NCBI GenBank assembly: GCA_905480095.1
Contig: CAJQPF010000030.1
Span: 1-60,482 of the forward strand
DNA: 60,482 bases
Reading direction: 5' to 3'
Source of the DNA: an uncultured Flavobacteriales bacterium
Lineage (GTDB): Bacteria > Bacteroidota > Bacteroidia > Flavobacteriales_D > Sanyastnellaceae
The notes beneath the pieces were generated by a model that saw nothing but the letters and a program-made list of their open reading frames with translations, was not told the DNA's origin and did not search any database. Of the stretch, positions 44,876 through 54,248 are shown one piece after another; positions within the stretch are counted from its first letter, which is position 1; the number at the start of each line of letters is the position of its first letter. Position numbers and translations under genes: made by a program.

Positions 44876-46978
44876 TTAGCATTCGTTACCGAAAGCAGCT
44901 AGAATTTCTAAAATGTCAGAAACCCCAACTATTCCATCCATATTTAGGTCGTATTGGCAACCTGCACTGCAACCAAATTCGCTTAGTACAGTAAGCACAT
45001 CGCTTACTGTAACAAAACCATTGTTATCTATGTCTTCAGGACATCCTGGATCAACTGTTACACAACCCGAACATGACCCCCAAGTATCAACTGTTGTAAT
45101 CGCGCCTACTGTAATTAATCTGTTTGCCCAATTTGAGTAATCTGTAACCGGCGCACACGTCCCACCATTTAGCATTTCTTCTATTAAGCCAGGTGTTTCT
45201 TGCTGGCCCCATCCATCTGTACAATATATATATTCAAATGTCCCTGCAGGCAAGCCAAATGTGCCTTCCCAGACCCCATCTCCATCTCCATCAGTTAATG
45301 AATAGCTCCCACATGACCACCCCTCTGATGGACCTGTAGCTGCAACAGCTGTAGGTGTAAGTCCTGAACAATTCATATCTACTGTTAAGGTGACTTCATA
45401 CATGCATGAACCATTGTCTGTAGAAGCAGATGCATTATAATTAGACGCTGTGGCATCTGTACATCCTGAAACGACACCACAACCAGGCGTTAATGTAGAT
45501 GTGGTTACTGTTCCAACACCTCCTGCTGTAACGAAAACATTTGCATTTCCACAACCGTCTCCCCATTGCAGCCCCCATCCAGACCAATTATCAGCAGAAC
45601 CTGTGACAGCAACTACATATTCAAAGGTCGTCCCTTGCTCTATCTCAAGAGATCCGGTATAAATACCATCAGAATCTTCATCAGCTAAAGTTACACCCCA
45701 GCCGTTCCAACCATTCCAAGAACCGTTTACAACGACATTGTCATATTCAGCACTTGGCTGGTCTACACCGTTCATGTCTACAACAAATTCAATCGTTGCT
45801 GTTGTAGACTCTCCCTCACAGGATCCACATGTCCCATACGTATTTGAAACATCTCCTGAACCCACCACCCATTGTCTGTTTGCATATGAAAAGTTATCTG
45901 TCACGGGAGTACATGACCAATCTTCTGAAGCTGAACCTGCAGCAACTAAATCCTCCTGAACTCCATCTAACACTAACAAATACTCCATGTTATCTGCTGG
46001 TGCAGGGTCAAATGTAAATGTCCAAGAACCATCGCCATTGTCAGAAGCTGTTGGACCTGCAGCTGGATCCCAGCCCCACCATGGACCAGTCATTTCAACT
46101 GAAGTAGCTGCACCGCAAACAGTTGTTGTAATATTGAGTGTGGTGGATGAATACGTACACGAACCATCATCAGTCGTTGCATTTGGATTATAGTTGTCAG
46201 CTGCTGGGTCTGTACATCCAACATCAGCATCTTGATACACCCGAACATAATCAACCTGCATAACTGCAGGAAATTGAGTTGCCCCATTAGGTGGACCAGG
46301 CCAATTACCACCTACAGCAAGGTTAATGAGAAAAAAGAACGGCTCATGAAACTCTTCTTTTGAAATTGAACTGGAACTAATATCAGTCTCATAATACATA
46401 ATCCCATTTAGAAACCATTGAATACTCGAAGGGGACCATTCAATACTATATACCTGGAATTCATTGGCATCGCAAGAAATAGACCCTCCAGAATATTGGT
46501 GTCCGTTGTTGTTGTAATGATGGGTTCCATGAATAATGGTCTCATTATTAATATGCTCCATCACATCAATTTCTCCGCATTGCGGCCAACTTACATTGTC
46601 AATGTTGGCGCCAAGCATCCAAAATGCTGGCCACAGACCTTGACCCACAGGAACTTTAATCCTGGCTTCAACCCTCCCATAAGTAAAGTCAAATAAACCT
46701 TTTGATTTGATTCTCGCAGATGTATAGCTTGCGGCACCGAATTGTTCATTAATGGCTGTAATATTTAGATAGCCATTTTCAACAGAGACGTTAGAGCTGC
46801 TATTTGTGTAATACTGTTGTTCGTTGTTGCCCCACCCCCAATTACCTTGACCGATATCATAGGTCCATTGATTGAGATTTAACGCACTTCCATCAAATTC
46901 ATCAGACCAAATCAAAGTGTTCTGACCCAGTGCTGTAAGATGCAAAAAGGAAAATAATAATACAAGGTGAATTTTCAT
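44876..46978 (-). CDS. GH16 beta-glucanase (laminarinase-like), multimodular, dockerin-like C-terminus
   Basis: LIWSDEFDGSALNLNQWTYD; WPQCGEIDVMEHIN catalytic motif; HEPFFFLINLAVGGNWPG; GSWNGWNGWG-type modules; double EF-hand-like C-terminus. Confidence 0.93.
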   Translation of the reverse strand: MKIHLVLLFSFLHLTALGQNTLIWSDEFDGSALNLNQWTYDIGQGNWGWGNNEQQYYTNSSSNVSVENGYLNITAINEQFGAASYTSARIKSKGLFDFTYGRVEARIKVPVGQGLWPAFWMLGANIDNVSWPQCGEIDVMEHINNETIIHGTHHYNNNGHQYSGGSISCDANEFQVYSIEWSPSSIQWFLNGIMYYETDISSSSISKEEFHEPFFFLINLAVGGNWPGPPNGATQFPAVMQVDYVRVYQDADVGCTDPAADNYNPNATTDDGSCTYSSTTLNITTTVCGAATSVEMTGPWWGWDPAAGPTASDNGDGSWTFTFDPAPADNMEYLLVLDGVQEDLVAAGSASEDWSCTPVTDNFSYANRQWVVGSGDVSNTYGTCGSCEGESTTATIEFVVDMNGVDQPSAEYDNVVVNGSWNGWNGWGVTLADEDSDGIYTGSLEIEQGTTFEYVVAVTGSADNWSGWGLQWGDGCGNANVFVTAGGVGTVTTSTLTPGCGVVSGCTDATASNYNASASTDNGSCMYEVTLTVDMNCSGLTPTAVAATGPSEGWSCGSYSLTDGDGDGVWEGTFGLPAGTFEYIYCTDGWGQQETPGLIEEMLNGGTCAPVTDYSNWANRLITVGAITTVDTWGSCSGCVTVDPGCPEDIDNNGFVTVSDVLTVLSEFGCSAGCQYDLNMDGIVGVSDILEILAAFGNEC

Positions 46979-46984
46979 GGCTAT

Positions 46985-47000
46985 GAATATAACAATAAAT
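46985..47000 (-). promoter_or_regulatory. Diverged copy of the shared upstream box
   Basis: GAATATAACAATAAAT, similar to AAATATACAATAAGT, just upstream of the GH16 start. Confidence 0.3.
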
Positions 47001-47017
47001 GGGTCAAAAGGTCGTAT

Positions 47018-48439
47018 TTAATTCTTGATAAATGATACGGTGTTAAAATTATTCCCGCCAATCAATTGAATGAAATACATCCCACTCATCAAAGATGAAA
47101 TATCTACTGAACCTGAGTTTGATCCAGACATTAATTTACGCCCCATTGAATTATATATGATATAGCTGTAATGACTTGGAACATTAGATAGTGAAATCTT
47201 GTCAGAAGCAGGATTAGGATATACTTCAAACTCCAGTTCAAGATCCGACACACCAACTTCATCCTCACATGCGGGACACATTGCACCACCACAATCAATG
47301 CCGGTTTCGTCTTGGTTCATCACACCATCATTACAGGTTTCTAGCAAAGACTCCCCTTTATAAAGATATAAATTGTCATACCAAGCGTTTGGTAAATTAG
47401 AAGTAATATGTATCTGAGCCAAGTCACTTGTCGTTAAGTTACCAATCACAAGAGGCCCAAAAACAGTGATATCAACATCAACGGAAACCCAAGCCCCAGC
47501 TATCATAGCGGGATTCGTTCCAGCATTAAAATTAACTTCTAAACCAGTGGCTCCAGCTTCTGTTTCATTCCCTGCCCAATCCACTAATTTTAAGTTAAAA
47601 ACTTTATCGATAACATACGTTTCATCCGTATAGAAATCAAAATGAAGATGTGTAAATGCAGAGGCATCTATTCTATTGTTCTCAAAATTGATTCCTTGGC
47701 AACCTTCACCCAAATAACGCTGTGTTGGATTGCCTACAATCATCTCTTCTGCTACTGCAGGAGAAAAACCACACAAACCAAAATCAAAATCATCAATTAC
47801 AACATCCGCATAAGCATCACTGTAAATAGAAATCACATCGCCTGGCTCTCTGGCTGGCGGTGTTGGAGCTGAAACCATTGGTCCACCAATCACAACAACA
47901 CATTCCCCATCAACACATTCTTGTCCCTCAGGACATGTGACATCCGCACAAGGGTCTGCGATGGCACTACTTGAAACAGTCATATTTGTTAATGTTACTG
48001 GCGCATCTAGCGTAGTCACATACAATAGGAATGAACTAAATGTATTGTCTCCTTGAGCAGGAATGTCAACTGAGTAAGATGTTTCAACTGTACCACTCAC
48101 GGTCACAGAAGCAGTGACAAAACTAGGCTCAGTGTCAGGATATGGATTGTACTCAAATCTGAAATACACATCTACGTCTACCCCAGCAGTTGCACCTGTA
48201 AAGGTGATCTCGCCACTGTCGGAAAAACTCAATGGATAAAGACTGACATCTTCATTCGCAAAGCCAGCCCATCCTTCAGAACCTGTAGGGTTTGTATAGG
48301 TGAAGCCATCCTGAGTTGCACCCCCAAATGTACCGGAGAACACCACGTCTGAATGTATGACTTGAGCGTGTAAAAATACAGAAGCACTGATGGAAATTAA
48401 AAAAGCAAAAACTCTGAATAATGAAGTCTTGTAGGTCAT
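47018..48439 (-). CDS. Secreted protein with T9SS type-A C-terminal sorting domain
   Basis: Signal peptide; N-terminal module closely matching the 42070-43812 protein; C-terminal VYPNPASDKISLSNVP...GMYFIQLIGGNNFNTVSFIKN. Confidence 0.82.
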   Translation of the reverse strand: MTYKTSLFRVFAFLISISASVFLHAQVIHSDVVFSGTFGGATQDGFTYTNPTGSEGWAGFANEDVSLYPLSFSDSGEITFTGATAGVDVDVYFRFEYNPYPDTEPSFVTASVTVSGTVETSYSVDIPAQGDNTFSSFLLYVTTLDAPVTLTNMTVSSSAIADPCADVTCPEGQECVDGECVVVIGGPMVSAPTPPAREPGDVISIYSDAYADVVIDDFDFGLCGFSPAVAEEMIVGNPTQRYLGEGCQGINFENNRIDASAFTHLHFDFYTDETYVIDKVFNLKLVDWAGNETEAGATGLEVNFNAGTNPAMIAGAWVSVDVDITVFGPLVIGNLTTSDLAQIHITSNLPNAWYDNLYLYKGESLLETCNDGVMNQDETGIDCGGAMCPACEDEVGVSDLELEFEVYPNPASDKISLSNVPSHYSYIIYNSMGRKLMSGSNSGSVDISSLMSGMYFIQLIGGNNFNTVSFIKN

Positions 48440-48481
48440 AATTGATTAAATTGTTTTGAAGTAAATGAGAGGTATATAGTC

Positions 48482-48496
48482 AAATATACAATAAGT
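48482..48496 (-). promoter_or_regulatory. Shared upstream box, third exact/near-exact copy
   Basis: AAATATACAATAAGT identical to 43875-43889. On minus it reads ACTTATTGTATATTTG, including TAnnTTTG, the Bacteroidetes -7 consensus. Confidence 0.5.
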
Positions 48497-48605
48497 ATGC
48501 GTTACATGGTAAGCCTATAACAAGGGCTTCGTGTAAAAATTACACTGTATTCCGTAAATTTTGAAAATTAAATGCGTAGATTTTGCGGTTCAATAAACAG
48601 AAAAC

Positions 48606-50231
48606 ATGACCAAGCAAGAAACAAACTACAGTGCACTGACAACATTGACAACAGTATTCTTCTTTTGGGGGTTTATTGCCGCCGGCAATAGTATTTTCAT
48701 TCCCTTTTGTAAAAATTACTTTTCGTTAGACCAATTCCAATCTCAACTTATTGACTTTGCTTTTTACCTCGCATACTTTGTGGGTGCTTTGGGATTATTC
48801 GTTGTAGGCTCTCAGAAAAACAAAGATCTTGTCGGAAGCTGGGGATATAAAAAAAGTACAATATATGGTTTGCTCTTCTCGGCGCTCGGCGCTGGAACGA
48901 TGATTGTATCTGTCTATATGAACACCTTTACTGGAATGCTATTGGGACTGTTTGTGGTCGCTCTAGGATTCTCACTTCAGCAAACATCTACAAATCCGTT
49001 TATGATCGCATTGGGCGACCCTAAAACGGGCAGCAACAGAATCAACCTTGGAGGTGCCATCAATTCCTTAGGCACAACATTGGGCCCGATTATTATTGCT
49101 TTGGCGCTATTTGGATCTGCTGCCGCAGTAGATGATGACATGATTGCGTCTTTAAGTTTAAGTAAGGTGATCGTGTTATATGGCGCCGTCGGCTTATTAT
49201 TTATTGCACTCGCTACCATTTTAGGGAAGTCAAAAAGTGTGCCCGCAGGCATTTCTGAGGAAACTCCTGAAAAAGCAAACAACGCACTCCTCACACTGTT
49301 AACTATGACAGTATTACTTGCAGTCTGCTTTGCCCCCGTTTTTAACAGCTACAGGTTCGATTATGCAGTACTTGACATGCCCGGAATTGAAATGACCAGA
49401 ATGAGTTGGCTGTCGGGAGGCCTTGCGGTCATTGTCATCGGCATTCTTTTTGCGCAATTTAAATCATCACGCAACGCTTCTGGTTGGGGCGCAATGCAAT
49501 ACCCGCAGCTTACACTGGGGATGCTCGCTATTTTTGTATACGTAGGTGTAGAAGTGGCGATCGGATCGAACCTCGGAGAGTTTTTAAAGCAGCCTGAGTT
49601 TGGAGGATTTGAGTCTTCTGAAATCACACCATTTGTTGCGATGTTTTGGGGGAGTTTAATGATTGGTCGTTGGGTTGGCGCAGTCAACGTTTTTCCGCTT
49701 TCTTCTGTCCAGAAAAATATTCTAAAATTTGTCGTACCGTTCGTGGCTTTCGGCGTCGTGATGGGTGCCACACACCTCGCTGGGTATGACACCTCAGCCC
49801 TCAAGTGGTACTTTATTTGCATCTTAGTCCAAATCGCAGCGTTTTTTCTCACGAAAGACAAGCCCGCATATACACTTAGCGTTTTCGGGATTCTCGGACT
49901 GACCTCCATCATTATTGCGCTCAACACGACAGGTCTTGTCGCAGTTTACGCGCTTCTTGCTTGTGGACTTGCATGCTCGATCATGTGGCCTTGTATCTTC
50001 TCATTGGCAATCGCTGGACTGGGAAAGTACACCACACAGGGATCTGCATTCCTCGTCATGATGATTCTAGGAGGCGCCATCATCCCTCCCATTCAAGGGA
50101 AACTTGCCGACCTTGAATCCGTGGGGATTCAGAACTCTTTTGTGGTCGGAGGACTTTGCTTTGCTTATCTCGTTTACTACGCTTGGTTTGCAAAACGCTC
50201 GCTCAACAAACAAGGTCTAACATTTGAGTAA
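48606..50231 (+). CDS. Sugar MFS transporter (FucP-like)
   Basis: 12-TM-like protein; FFFWGFIAAGNSIFIPFCKNYF N-terminus and QQTSTNPFMIALGDP motif typical of FucP-family permeases. Confidence 0.88.
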   Translation: MTKQETNYSALTTLTTVFFFWGFIAAGNSIFIPFCKNYFSLDQFQSQLIDFAFYLAYFVGALGLFVVGSQKNKDLVGSWGYKKSTIYGLLFSALGAGTMIVSVYMNTFTGMLLGLFVVALGFSLQQTSTNPFMIALGDPKTGSNRINLGGAINSLGTTLGPIIIALALFGSAAAVDDDMIASLSLSKVIVLYGAVGLLFIALATILGKSKSVPAGISEETPEKANNALLTLLTMTVLLAVCFAPVFNSYRFDYAVLDMPGIEMTRMSWLSGGLAVIVIGILFAQFKSSRNASGWGAMQYPQLTLGMLAIFVYVGVEVAIGSNLGEFLKQPEFGGFESSEITPFVAMFWGSLMIGRWVGAVNVFPLSSVQKNILKFVVPFVAFGVVMGATHLAGYDTSALKWYFICILVQIAAFFLTKDKPAYTLSVFGILGLTSIIIALNTTGLVAVYALLACGLACSIMWPCIFSLAIAGLGKYTTQGSAFLVMMILGGAIIPPIQGKLADLESVGIQNSFVVGGLCFAYLVYYAWFAKRSLNKQGLTFE

Positions 50232-50235
50232 AGTG

Positions 50236-51246
50236 CTACTTGACGACAAACCTTTTGATGTCGTGGTGCACCCTTCCGCTACTTAGCACGTTAATCTGAA
50301 AAACGTACGCTCCAGGCGCAAGCTTTTGAGATCCTGGTTGCAATGGGATTTGATGGCTCCCTTCATTTATCATTCCAAGGGATTTCTCATAGACTTTGCG
50401 CCCACTGATCGCATAAATCGAAATCTCTACATCTGAGGATGTCAGTAGATTCAGGGAGATCTTAGAATTCAAAGAAAGTGGATTGGGGGTGGGCTCACCG
50501 AGAGAAAATACTTTTGCGGCTTCTCTTTCCAAATAGCCAACGCCATTGACACCTGTTCCTGCAACGGCAACCTCAATGTCACTTACATAAGACTCTAGTT
50601 CCTCATCCCAAACAAGTGTCGCAAGTTGATGTTCATACCCATCGTTAAACGCACCATCCATTTCAGGTGTCATCGGGTCAGGACCTTGGGTATGTATGGT
50701 CGGGTTGTTTATCGCGATATCGACTGCCGCTTCGTGAGGCCACGTAAATTGTGAGACCGCTGCAAACGACGTACTGAGATGGACTTGAAAGTGCATGTGT
50801 ACGACTCGACCTGGATACCAGCCAGGCAAGATTGAAATAAACGTTACCTCACCATTGTCATCTGTGATTTTGTATCCACGCATATATGTTTGGCCTTCAC
50901 TGTCAAAGGCAGAATACCCTGAGTAATCTCCATTGACATCACACGCCCAGAAGTTCACGCGCAGGTTAGGCATGGGTTGACAATTGTCAACGCCCACAAC
51001 ACGCATGCGTTGAATGACACGTATCCCAGGTCTCCCTTCAGTAATGTCTTGTCTGAAGAAAAAAGTATTGTCCGACAAATCGAGCGGAAACGGACCTGGG
51101 GTCTCAGATGGAATCAATGTACATCCACCTTGACCCCCAGCTGGACTCACTGACAATTCAGACGCTGCTGCGGCTGCAACAAGAGGTGCAGAAATGATGG
51201 CGCCACTGGCGAGGCCCAAAGAACGAAGGAATGTTTTTCTTTTCAT
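50236..51246 (-). CDS. Intradiol ring-cleavage dioxygenase-like protein with T9SS sorting domain
   Basis: MKRKTFLRSLGLASGAIISAPLVAAAAAS signal; TLIPSETPGPFPLDL, YKITDDNGEVTFISILPGWYPGRVVHMHFQV dioxygenase core; C-terminal T9SS-like domain. Confidence 0.85.
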   Translation of the reverse strand: MKRKTFLRSLGLASGAIISAPLVAAAAASELSVSPAGGQGGCTLIPSETPGPFPLDLSDNTFFFRQDITEGRPGIRVIQRMRVVGVDNCQPMPNLRVNFWACDVNGDYSGYSAFDSEGQTYMRGYKITDDNGEVTFISILPGWYPGRVVHMHFQVHLSTSFAAVSQFTWPHEAAVDIAINNPTIHTQGPDPMTPEMDGAFNDGYEHQLATLVWDEELESYVSDIEVAVAGTGVNGVGYLEREAAKVFSLGEPTPNPLSLNSKISLNLLTSSDVEISIYAISGRKVYEKSLGMINEGSHQIPLQPGSQKLAPGAYVFQINVLSSGRVHHDIKRFVVK

Positions 51247-51363
51247 TCTTGTAAGGTAACCATTGGGATTAGATTTCACAAGAAAGCCCTTAGCTCTGCG
51301 AGCGATTTGGGCTTTTTTATACACTTTTTCTTACACAAGCTTCGCTTGTGACGACAGCGCATA

Positions 51364-51405
51364 AAAAAAGCCCGATACACTTTATGTATCAGGCTTCTTT
51401 TTTTT
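51364..51405 (-). terminator. Rho-independent terminator downstream of tRNA-Arg (could act bidirectionally)
   Basis: Minus strand AAGCCTGATACATAAAGTGTATCGGGCTTTTTTT: long GC stem flanked by A/T runs. Confidence 0.85.
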
Positions 51406-51407
51406 TG

Positions 51408-51481
51408 TGACCCTGTAGGGATTCGAACCCCAAACCTTCGCATCCGTAATGCGATGCTCTATCCAGTTGAGCTACAAGGCC
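51408..51481 (-). tRNA. tRNA-Arg (anticodon ACG)
   Basis: Full cloverleaf on minus: GGCCTTG/CAGGGTC acceptor, GCTC/GAGC D-arm, TCGCA-TTACGGA-TGCGA anticodon arm, TGGGG-TTCGAAT-CCCTA T-arm. CCA not encoded. Confidence 0.95.
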
Positions 51482-51559
51482 AATTCGAACTCAATGACGA
51501 GTTCTAAACGGACGGCAAAGATACTCACGTTCAAGCATCGTGCAAATTTTAAATGAAAT

Positions 51560-52620
51560 TTTCGTGAAATAAGAAATCCGCACCGGTGGCTTGGATTTCA
51601 AGTCGAAACTTTCGTCGTCAGCAACACCGATGCGGATCCTCCCAGTCTCCGTCACCTGAACCGGGTAGGAGTCCTTTGAGGGGCCAGGGCACAAGGCCCT
51701 AGCATCTCTCCGGTCCGATCAATGTCAATGTTCATTTCTATCGATCGGCTGGCTTCCTCAAGCATCTTGTTCCGTGCTGTCTTGCGACGTCGTCCATATC
51801 CTCACCAACAAAAGAAAACAAGAGGGGAACCTCTTTATCTCTCCAGTGGATCGGGGTCGGTGCTTTACAACCGAAGTTGCAGCGACACGGGTACGATACC
51901 CTTTGGAAAACCGAGCTTCACCTTAATGGGTTGATCTCGGCCTTTGCGCAGCTTTCACTGGCGCTGTTCGAACGGCGGGCCTACTTAGAACTTGGTCTTC
52001 TAAGGCGTGTCGAAACACGACAAAGAATTCCTCAGTTTTACAAATGCAAAGACAAGCCTTGCTTTCGTGTATTCCGCTGCTTCCGTCATGTAGAACCCAT
52101 TTAGTCCGTTAGTATGCGCGTATACACACAAGGTGTATCGGTTGCATACCCGTTACTCAACTGACAACTTAAACTTTGACCAGGTCAAATCTCAAACTGC
52201 GAAGTCCAATAGTACCTTTCGATAACTACGAGATGATTCATTCTACATGTTTTTCAATGTGTCAACTTCAGATCGCCGAAGCTTTCTTACGTGATCCCTT
52301 TCGAAATCCAACCATTCTCAGGCAGAGACGCATCTCAAACTCGAACTCCCACTCAACGTTGCGAGTGAGATCGCAATCTAAACCTAAATCGGTCTAGGGT
52401 CTGTTCAGAATTTCATTGCTGAACTTCTTCACTTCCTGTAACGTCTGTTTCTCTCTCAAGAATTACCCCCTTTCGGGACCCCTTTCACCTTTCGGATGCC
52501 TTCTATATAAAATTCGATTTGCATCTCGTTGAACATAGATCGCTTTGGGGGTTCAGCCACATTGCTTGAAGCAAATAAGCAACTAATTTCCTATGTCAGT
52601 CAAATTATTGGGGCAAAAGG
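51560..52620 (-). ncRNA. Candidate large (~1.1 kb) structured non-coding RNA, class unknown
   Basis: No credible ORF. At least 14 short-range perfect or near-perfect hairpins; six CGAAAG (C-GAAA-G tetraloop) motifs and a canonical CAAC-UUCG-GUUG on the minus strand; a 13-bp terminal helix (51576-51588/51625-51637, one G-U) followed by a T-rich tail. Confidence 0.6.
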
Positions 52621-52685
52621 AATTCACAAGAAACACACATAGCTTATAAACAATTGTTAACTACGTGCTTATGCACGTCAAAGTG

Positions 52686-54248
52686 TTACGCTATAAAGTA
52701 TCGAATACTGACTGTTGCCGGCAATTCCGCGGGGAAAGTCCGTGAACAAGATTCGTCAATCCTGAGGCCTGCTTCGGCAGCCATGGCATCGTATACAGGG
52801 ATTTCTACGATATATTGATCCGCAAATCCATGTGTCGCGTCATATGCTGTAGCAGGCATACCTCCCTGACGATCTGCAGCATCATCGGGATCTATTGTGT
52901 GAAGCTCGACGACAAGAAGACCGTGTTCTGCGACATATGGAGACCATCGTAAAAAATGTTCTTTTAAGCTCTGTTCTACATGACGAAGTTTAAGACGTTC
53001 ACCTCGAAAGGCAAAGGCGCCAGTAGAAACAGCTCTATCAGGCCTGTCAATGAGCGGACGATTGAAGATACGGTTGTGATCCAGAAAAGAGCGCACACTC
53101 ATTAAATCTCCCAAGCGAATCTTGTGATGTGTCCAAAGGTCTAAGGCGAGTTGATCGGGGTCACCAATGTCTCCCCAAATAAAATGGCCATCCACGCCCT
53201 CCTGTTTAAAGTGATCTGCTGTGGCCACCAGTGCTTCTTGATTAAAATCCGCACCCACAAGTTCCAAGGGGTGACTGTCTAGGTTTTTTCCGCGTAAAGT
53301 GGAATTTTTGATTACCTCATATAAGTGCAGTAGCATGGCTCCATTGCCGCAACCCATATCACAAATTCCGACAGGTTGATCTTCTAAAGGCGCGTTAAAT
53401 ATTGATTTAACCACCTCATCCAAGTGGGTGAAATATGCTTTGTGGGCACCTCCTGAACCCCACACATTTAAGGTTCTATCTACATGAATTTCTGGTTCAC
53501 CTGGCTCGGTACGCCACAGATAAGAACCATCTCCGAAAATCAATTCTCGGGCCCAGATAAATGTTTTCGTGTAAGATGTTGTCACACCATAAGAAGCTGA
53601 ACGATTTAAAAAGAAGGCTCCCTTTTCTGTTCTGTCCCACCCCAATAGCTGAATGACTCTGCCCCAAGCCTCCTGCTTAGATGCATCCATTTTAAGGACT
53701 GCAGCATCGTGAGCTTCCCAGGTGGACAAAGGTCGCGTTCCGTGAATGGTGCCAAGGGTGACAAGCCATGGAGACACAAGTGCCCCTTCCAAATGGTTTT
53801 TTATCCTTCCCATAATCCCCTCATCAGGCATCTCTGACCAGGCATCCATTAAAATCTCCATCGCCATGATTGCGGAGGAGGTCATGGGTGTTGTGGGTGT
53901 ATTCCAAGTATTTGCCGATTCTTCTAGCCAAACCCGACCTGTGGCATATGAACTGCTGTGACGGTACCAATCTGTTGGTGTTTTCCCTACAGCAGGTCTG
54001 TAATTAATTTTATCTTCAGCGCGGACTGCTTCTAGTAATCCTTGTGAACAGAGCATTCGGAGGGCCACATTTAAATACCCTGCATTTGCTCTATACTCTG
54101 CAGCAAGTTCATCGACATCACCAGAAGAACGAAACACCCTCTCTAACAATCCCCATTCCTCAAGAACAGGAACAACTCCACACATGGCCAAACCATCTAG
54201 ATGATAGAACAGCCTCTTCCTTAATATACGTTTTTCTGATGTCTCCAT
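52686..54248 (-). CDS. Class I SAM-dependent methyltransferase with winged-helix-like N-terminal region
   Basis: VGICDMGCGNGAMLLHLYEVI motif I; LVGADFNQEALVAT; N-terminal dimerisation/wHTH-like YLNVALRMLCSQGLLE. Confidence 0.82.
   Translation of the reverse strand: METSEKRILRKRLFYHLDGLAMCGVVPVLEEWGLLERVFRSSGDVDELAAEYRANAGYLNVALRMLCSQGLLEAVRAEDKINYRPAVGKTPTDWYRHSSSYATGRVWLEESANTWNTPTTPMTSSAIMAMEILMDAWSEMPDEGIMGRIKNHLEGALVSPWLVTLGTIHGTRPLSTWEAHDAAVLKMDASKQEAWGRVIQLLGWDRTEKGAFFLNRSASYGVTTSYTKTFIWARELIFGDGSYLWRTEPGEPEIHVDRTLNVWGSGGAHKAYFTHLDEVVKSIFNAPLEDQPVGICDMGCGNGAMLLHLYEVIKNSTLRGKNLDSHPLELVGADFNQEALVATADHFKQEGVDGHFIWGDIGDPDQLALDLWTHHKIRLGDLMSVRSFLDHNRIFNRPLIDRPDRAVSTGAFAFRGERLKLRHVEQSLKEHFLRWSPYVAEHGLLVVELHTIDPDDAADRQGGMPATAYDATHGFADQYIVEIPVYDAMAAEAGLRIDESCSRTFPAELPATVSIRYFIA

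Follow-up and report, generated by a model that had tools for sequence, protein, structure and literature searches.

A conserved large structured noncoding RNA with a dedicated promoter region in one family of Flavobacteriales

Introduction

In a Flavobacteriales draft genome (G000; 2.1 Mb, 83.5% complete) nothing but short open reading frames is found between the stop of a methyltransferase gene (52686) and the gene of tRNA-Arg(ACG) (51407-51481, minus strand), which raises the question of what this interval encodes. Positions are those of the window, i.e. the whole stretch of 60,482 nucleotides that was analysed, on contig C30. A prediction made from the sequence alone (hereafter the original prediction) had named these boundaries and the short reading frames between them, and had proposed a giant structured noncoding RNA on the minus strand upstream of the tRNA. 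The boundaries and the description of the reading frames held, and the proposal is supported by conservation, by structure above the null, by the absence of a coding signal and by the absence of an Rfam family.

Few bacterial RNAs are this large and complex (rRNA, RNase P RNA, OLE, GOLLD, ROOL, HEARO and the group II introns), and several of them are without a settled job. Here it is shown by sequence comparison that a conserved large structured noncoding RNA, with a dedicated promoter region and a terminator-like end, is shared by four or more genera within a single Flavobacteriales family. In the window the minus strand from about 52567 to 51567 (ends inferred) in all probability encodes an independent structured RNA of about 1 kb and not a leader of the tRNA.

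Results

Conservation and genomic context

The giant RNA was placed at 51567..52567 on the minus strand, with a length of about 1000 nt and inferred ends; it is present in most genomes of the genus, has structure above the null, is noncoding and has no Rfam match. The distance from the promoter region to the terminator is 869-1112 nt across the genus and about 1000 nt in the window. The BLASTN search that had been suggested for the region retrieved it from 12 of 14 examined genomes belonging to the genus (g1), with about 68-95% identity where long matches were reported; the two genomes without the RNA are incomplete drafts (63% and 82%). In all 12 genomes carrying it, the RNA stands directly upstream of tRNA-Arg(ACG).

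Beyond the genus, R1, a covariance model covering 190 nt at the 3' end, identified the RNA in 8 genomes of the sister genus g3 (E 8e-17 to 5.5e-6). The R1 matches in genera g5 and g11 were weak; they lie in noncoding gaps of about 0.7-1 kb, at the 3' end. A model of the 5' domain (R2) matched nothing outside the genus. Additionally, nucleotide profiles built for each genus matched the other genera in a mostly colinear order, namely at the 5' end, in the CCUGARAAUGG hairpin and at the 3' end, and zero shuffled decoys were matched up to E 0.1. These sequence comparisons show that three or more other genera of the family carry relatives of the RNA. It should be emphasized that the comparisons rest on draft genomes.

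The order methyltransferase, RNA, tRNA-Arg is kept in the g3 genomes where both flanks are on the contig (G034, G118, G114 and G015). No tRNA was found downstream in two other g3 genomes (G115 and G119), or near the RNA homologues in g5 or g11. The upstream neighbour in the window is an AprA-type methyltransferase-domain protein (52686..54248, minus strand; PF23525, PF23526), a homologue of which is also the upstream neighbour in g3. This protein adjoins the RNA in both g1 and g3, and its role in these marine bacteria is unknown. The tRNA-Arg (ACG) at 51407..51481 (minus strand) is a neighbouring independent gene, and beyond it a cluster of secreted proteins (44876-51324) comprises a GH16 beta-glucanase-like protein, a T9SS-tailed protein (47018-48439) and a dioxygenase fold with a T9SS tail (50236-51324).

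All named records sharing the terminator are metagenome-assembled genomes, and they are labelled Flavobacteriales, Crocinitomicaceae or Bacteroidetes with the exception of a single one labelled Euryarchaeota, which is presumably a mislabel. The gene appears to be single-copy, chromosomal and vertically inherited.

Secondary structure and coding potential

The structure was assessed against a null of 12 alignments per genus, which were simulated without structure, the tree and the substitutions being those of the real alignment, and folded with RNAalifold. In g1 (12 sequences) the folding energy was -329 versus -192±6 in the null, and 79 pairs changed on both sides versus 50.5±5.8. The corresponding values were -396 versus -173±9 and 138 versus 65.5±5 in g11 (15 sequences), -265 versus -136±10 and 88 versus 48±6 in g3, and -263 versus -222±8 and 69 versus 46±4 in g5. 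Furthermore, in all four genera the transcript strand outfolds its complement, and the minus-strand orientation that had been proposed for the RNA held.

The two terminal domains of the g1 RNA were also evaluated separately. The named structure pairs 97.6% of cells in the 3' domain (A1) and 98.1% in the 5' domain (A2), where 7 pairs changed on both sides. In the A1 region 14 of 42 pairs changed on both sides, which is reached by 0 of 500 shuffles; in neither domain does any shuffle equal the observed pairing or covariation score, and pairing falls to 43-56% when the partners are slid by one column. The covariation check suggested in the original prediction was carried out as an R-scape-like per-pair test on the 15-sequence g11 set, and no base pair reached E<0.05. 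Since no single pair is significant there, our structural claim concerns the whole structure only, for which the aggregate tests lie above the null.

A selected protein frame, named beforehand as a possible refutation, was checked: no reading frame is shared among the aligned sequences, and the lengths of gap runs modulo three (0/1/2) are 59/204/52, i.e. in the majority not divisible by three. In some sequences the stop-free stretches exceed the shuffled ones in length, mostly on the opposite strand.

Architecture of the RNA

The consensus structure was derived with MAFFT and RNAalifold, pseudoknots being excluded, and individual helices may be wrong. All elements described below are on the minus strand. 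The 5' domain (52438..52567) is closed by a helix at 52560-52555/52443-52438 and contains a CCCC/GGGG helix (52551-52548/52482-52479), the hairpins CC-GAAA-GG and CCC-GAAA-GGG and the conserved CCCCCAAAGCGAUC. In one member of the genus (L026 of G004) a 24-nt insertion in this domain repeats the GAAAGG hairpin unit (TGAAAGGAATCCTGAAAGGGATTC) and points to expansion by such units.

The central domain (51967..52345) is closed by a long-range helix (52345-52341/51971-51967) with 2 pairs changed on both sides. The hairpin CC-UGAGAAU-GG (52310..52324) is the most widely shared internal motif, being present in g1, g5 and most of g11, and it was not found in g3. It is followed by the covarying hairpin GAUUUC-GAAA-GGGAUC (52293..52308; 2 pairs changed on both sides) and by nested helices at 52249-52240/52096-52087 (4 such pairs) and 52086-52080/51978-51972 (2 such pairs). 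The CCUGAGAAUGG hairpin, GAUUUC-GAAA-GGGAUC and the nested long-range helices are all inside the central domain. Parts of this domain, or much of the variable middle, are absent in three genus members (G004, G006 and G010).

The 3' domain (51641..51752) is closed by a CCAG/CUGG helix (51752-51749/51645-51641) and carries hairpins at 51748-51715 and 51702-51684 together with the conserved CCGGUUCAGGU. At the end of the RNA stands a terminator-like hairpin (51567..51638), the arms of which (51636-51625/51588-51577; GGAUCCGCAUCGGUG...CACCGGUGCGGA) are followed by UUUCUUAUUU. This hairpin is near-invariant and is the 3' element common to g1, g3, g11 and part of g5.

Fourteen local hairpins had been listed in the original prediction. 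Five of them (51576-51637, 51637-51670, 51683-51703, 51715-51748 and 51911-51940) match conserved or covarying helices and the remaining nine are absent from the consensus structure, and long-range helices such as 52345-52341/51971-51967 and 52249-52240/52096-52087 had been missed. Both GAAA hairpins quoted there (52308-52293 and 52478-52467) held, as they coincide with conserved or covarying helices. The claim that CGAAAG occurs six times on the minus strand held exactly (52494, 52475, 52303, 52221, 52067 and 51614), with none on the plus strand; the expectation by a first-order Markov model is 0.64, somewhat higher than the 0.3 claimed, and the excess is still clear.

Promoter and phased array

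A phased array (the GTTAACAATTGTTTATAAGCTATGTGTGTTTCTTGTG region, 52625..52662, minus strand) precedes the RNA and consists of an inverted half-site and three TGTK half-sites about 11 bp apart. In its cross-genus consensus the array is similar to DnaA boxes (TGTKGATAA), to which the degenerate copy in the window is a poor match. The pattern ACAATTGTKnnnAAnnnnnGTKnnnnnnnTGTK has one exact match in the window's genome; across the order 61 of 399 genomes contain it exactly, while the reversed control gave 1 match. With at most one mismatch it is present in 65 of 115 genomes of the family, the control having no match. The consensus of 59 sites reads TTATcAACAATTGTTGATAAC-nnn-TGTtaAT-nnnn-TGTgnATAAC. 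The group-weighted consensus, gTTaTcA-ACAATTGT-TgAtAAc-nnn-TGTtaAT-nnnn-TGTgnATAAC, has the look of an inverted pair followed by a series of DnaA boxes spaced about 11 bp from each other. It resembles TGTKGATAA/TTATCMACA, and exact TTATCCACA/TGTGGATAA is present in only 15 of the 59 sites. DnaA is one possible reading of the array and the best match by sequence; there are no binding data, and the copy in the window is degenerate.

Downstream of the array a putative -33 element (TTG, 52601..52603, minus strand) is present in 12/12 genus members, and a spacer of 21 separates it from a putative -7 element (CTTATTTG, 52572..52579, minus strand), comparable to the flavobacterial sigma-A consensus TAnnTTTG (PMC9723704); the start of the RNA was inferred near 52567. 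Counted from the start of the array, the -7 element stands at +77/+78 in the majority of sites in g1, g3, g5 and the families f3, f4 and f5. At that spacing it is weaker and seen in only part of g11, where the sigma-A -33/-7 pair is also weak. An initial placing of the promoter (-33 at 52629-52627, -7 near 52607-52601) was replaced after comparison of all arrays.

The neighbouring tRNA-Arg has a promoter of its own at 51516..51546 on the minus strand (TTTG ... TATCTTTG, i.e. TTG-N19-TATCTTTG), which also fits the sigma-A consensus (PMC9723704), and the identical motif and spacing are found in 17/17 g1 and g3 genomes. Because this promoter follows the terminator-like hairpin and is present in all 17 genomes, the RNA and the tRNA look like separate transcription units, an inference that is probable and rests on sequence only. 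The tRNA context, originally regarded as suggestive, is refined in this respect: the link looks incidental, since the tRNA has its own promoter and no tRNA adjoins the RNA in g5 and g11.

Several further observations were made on the arrays. In one genome (G126) two array copies are present (C24 and C30), possibly reflecting two RNA copies or mixed strains. The array also precedes unrelated-looking noncoding stretches in three other families (f3, f4 and f5); these stretches (about 400-900 nt) do not align to the giant RNA. An alignment of f3 and f4 (group B) gave a modest structure signal (energy -54 versus -31±7; two-sided pairs 33 versus 19±3), and the aligned array-driven stretches of genera g9, g13 and g16 (group D) gave none. 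Given these modest or absent signals, homology of the other array-driven stretches to the giant RNA is not claimed. In L096 and L097 (f4) and L099, L101 and L102 (f3) GAGAGAU or a similar motif stands near the 5' end of the stretch, without an Rfam match, and most of these five have AACUGUARUU ... GGCGGA ... UCCGCC-UUACUGUUUU at the 3' end. In L098 (f5) two tandem, similar noncoding units of about 640 nt follow one array, from about +90 to +1500, and each ends with GCGAGAAUAC...GUAUUCUCGCUUUU. In L105, L106, L108 and L188 (g9, g13, g16) the array lies within a noncoding gap of 240-500 nt, which in the first three is just before a queE-like gene (named by eye), and g9 members have ATCCACGCGGG ... 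CCCGTGTGGATTTTTT arms reminiscent of the terminator of the giant RNA. Array matches in family f9 precede protein genes or fall in coding sequence, and may be unrelated.

Comparison with known RNAs

The Rfam scan suggested in the original prediction was run on the window at the gathering threshold, on 51300-52800 at E<=5, and on 20 loci from relatives; only tRNA was above the cut-off, and the hit to a known common RNA that would have refuted the prediction is absent. RNase P RNA and tmRNA were rejected as candidates, as RF00010 lies elsewhere in 8/14 genus genomes above the cut-off (including G000:C37) and RF00023 elsewhere in 11/14. In the 14 genus genomes neither 6S RNA (RF00013) nor 6S-Flavo (RF01685) was detected, but the search for the latter matched no control genome either. 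No phage, plasmid or viral-contig match was found for the RNA, the viral scan being limited to the exact terminator pattern, and the RNA is undescribed in the open-access literature searched.

GOLLD resembles the present RNA in being large (>800 nt), ornate, noncoding, near a tRNA here and more conserved in its 3' part (GOLLD description: PMC12286853). However, no GOLLD match was obtained from Rfam in the window at the gathering threshold or in 51300-52800 at E<=5, and GOLLD is carried on phages or prophages near tRNA islands, whereas here there is no phage match, a single tRNA and vertical chromosomal synteny. The parallel with GOLLD drawn in the original prediction is accordingly refined to one of kind only, with no homology and no phage association found. 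ROOL is also large, with many helices, of unknown function and often near tRNAs (PMC12286853), but there is no Rfam match and the giant RNA was not seen in phages. OLE is likewise a chromosomal large ornate RNA kept in one bacterial group; it differs in its length of about 600 nt and in its mostly Bacillota hosts (PMC12054373, PMC9723947), and it gave no Rfam match in this other host group. OLE is further marked by a membrane RNP with Oap proteins; no Oap protein was named among the neighbours scanned, although a dedicated search for Oap homologues was not part of the scan. The giant RNA belongs to none of GOLLD, ROOL and OLE by any sequence test. The raiA-motif RNA (ModT) is a conserved structured bacterial RNA as well, but without an Rfam match here, and it was described from Bacillota and other phyla (PMC11706538). 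Regarding the array, the DnaA-box clusters (datA, DARS and DnaA-regulated promoters) share with it DnaA-box-like sites outside the origin; here, in contrast, the array is at a fixed spacing from the promoter of a structured noncoding RNA, with no DnaA binding data.

Discussion

The existence of the RNA and of its structure is well supported; its transcription, its function and its control by DnaA are inferred, and no transcript data are available. We consider it probable that the RNA represents a new class of large ornate RNAs, like GOLLD, ROOL and OLE in kind and not by descent, which would act as an RNA particle or ribonucleoprotein scaffold, the role being assigned by analogy. In the mechanism that we propose the housekeeping sigma factor would transcribe the region from about 52567 to 51567, and a protein bound to the phased array, most plausibly DnaA, would tune the promoter by activation or repression, for which there are no binding data. 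Control by DnaA would tie the output of the RNA to the replication or growth state. The RNA itself may act through the shape into which it folds, either as a homo-oligomeric particle of RNA or as a ribonucleoprotein scaffold holding or sequestering partners, and not by coding, by full-length antisense pairing or as a tRNA leader. GOLLD, ROOL and OLE form homo-oligomers (PMC12286853), that of GOLLD being a nanocage; for the present RNA this is an analogy only, without partner or oligomer data. A scaffold role fits because the sequence turns over fast, compensatory changes preserve the helices, and whole peripheral domains are gained and lost.

Among the alternatives, the RNA could be a functional analogue of 6S RNA, i.e. 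an abundant transcriptional regulator that binds RNA polymerase. It is single-copy with its own promoter, and such a role is still conceivable given that the 14 genus genomes yielded no 6S RNA, the 6S-Flavo search being uninformative. The 6S RNAs are long hairpins of about 180 nt with an open bubble. The giant RNA is not such a hairpin and has no Rfam similarity, thus we regard this reading as unlikely. We are similarly doubtful that the RNA acts mainly by base-pairing, as a trans-acting antisense RNA or sponge the structure of which shields a few exposed seed loops. Short near-invariant stretches that are partly unpaired in the consensus (CCCCCAAAGCGAUC, CCGGUUCAGGU and the UGARAAU loop) speak for it, but the size and the number of conserved helices are far beyond those of typical small RNAs, and the near-invariant stretches differ among genera.

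There is very little room for the view that the RNA belongs to the pre-tRNA-Arg transcript as a long 5' leader, or is transcribed together with the tRNA as a processing element. It is always co-directional with the tRNA and directly upstream of it, both in g1 and in the five g3 genomes with a recovered tRNA; against this, the terminator-like hairpin separates the two, the tRNA has its own promoter in 17/17 genomes, and no tRNA is near the g5 and g11 homologues. It is just as improbable that the region is a chromosomal replication origin, with a DnaA-box array and structure at the DNA level, and not an RNA gene. The array does look like phased DnaA boxes with an inverted pair, but in the single-contig 4.1-Mb genome G025, which carries a one-mismatch array, the array stands at 0.69 Mb, in mid-replichore, and the skew flips sign near 1.65 Mb and 3.7 Mb; neither G005 nor G090 has a GC-skew switch near the locus. 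The clearest of these tests comes from genus g13, to which G025 and G090 both belong and in which the noncoding stretch behind the array is shorter. The origin was rejected on GC skew, and the compensatory changes and the strand preference indicate RNA. Finally, a decayed protein gene, pseudogene or mobile intron is all but excluded: the stop-free stretches longer than shuffled ones occur in some sequences only and mostly on the opposite strand, there is no frame in common, indels are mostly not multiples of three, and no Rfam intron family and no phage, plasmid or viral match was found.

Conclusions

Besides the preferred reading of an RNA particle or scaffold, a bolder and less likely one is possible, in which a core, replication-coupled giant RNA is produced from a dedicated promoter fired by a phased DnaA-type array across several Flavobacteriales families. 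If true, this would be a DnaA-controlled RNA machine with a promoter better conserved than its fast-evolving folded product (about 300-1000 nt by lineage).

The RNA described here adds what is probably a chromosomal, vertically inherited class of large RNA in uncultured marine Flavobacteriales, and it has been retained for so long that its sequence is largely replaced, whereas the helices are still there. The fixed promoter array is a regulatory handle that most giant RNAs are without, and through it a possible connection between the initiation of replication and a giant RNA could be tested directly.
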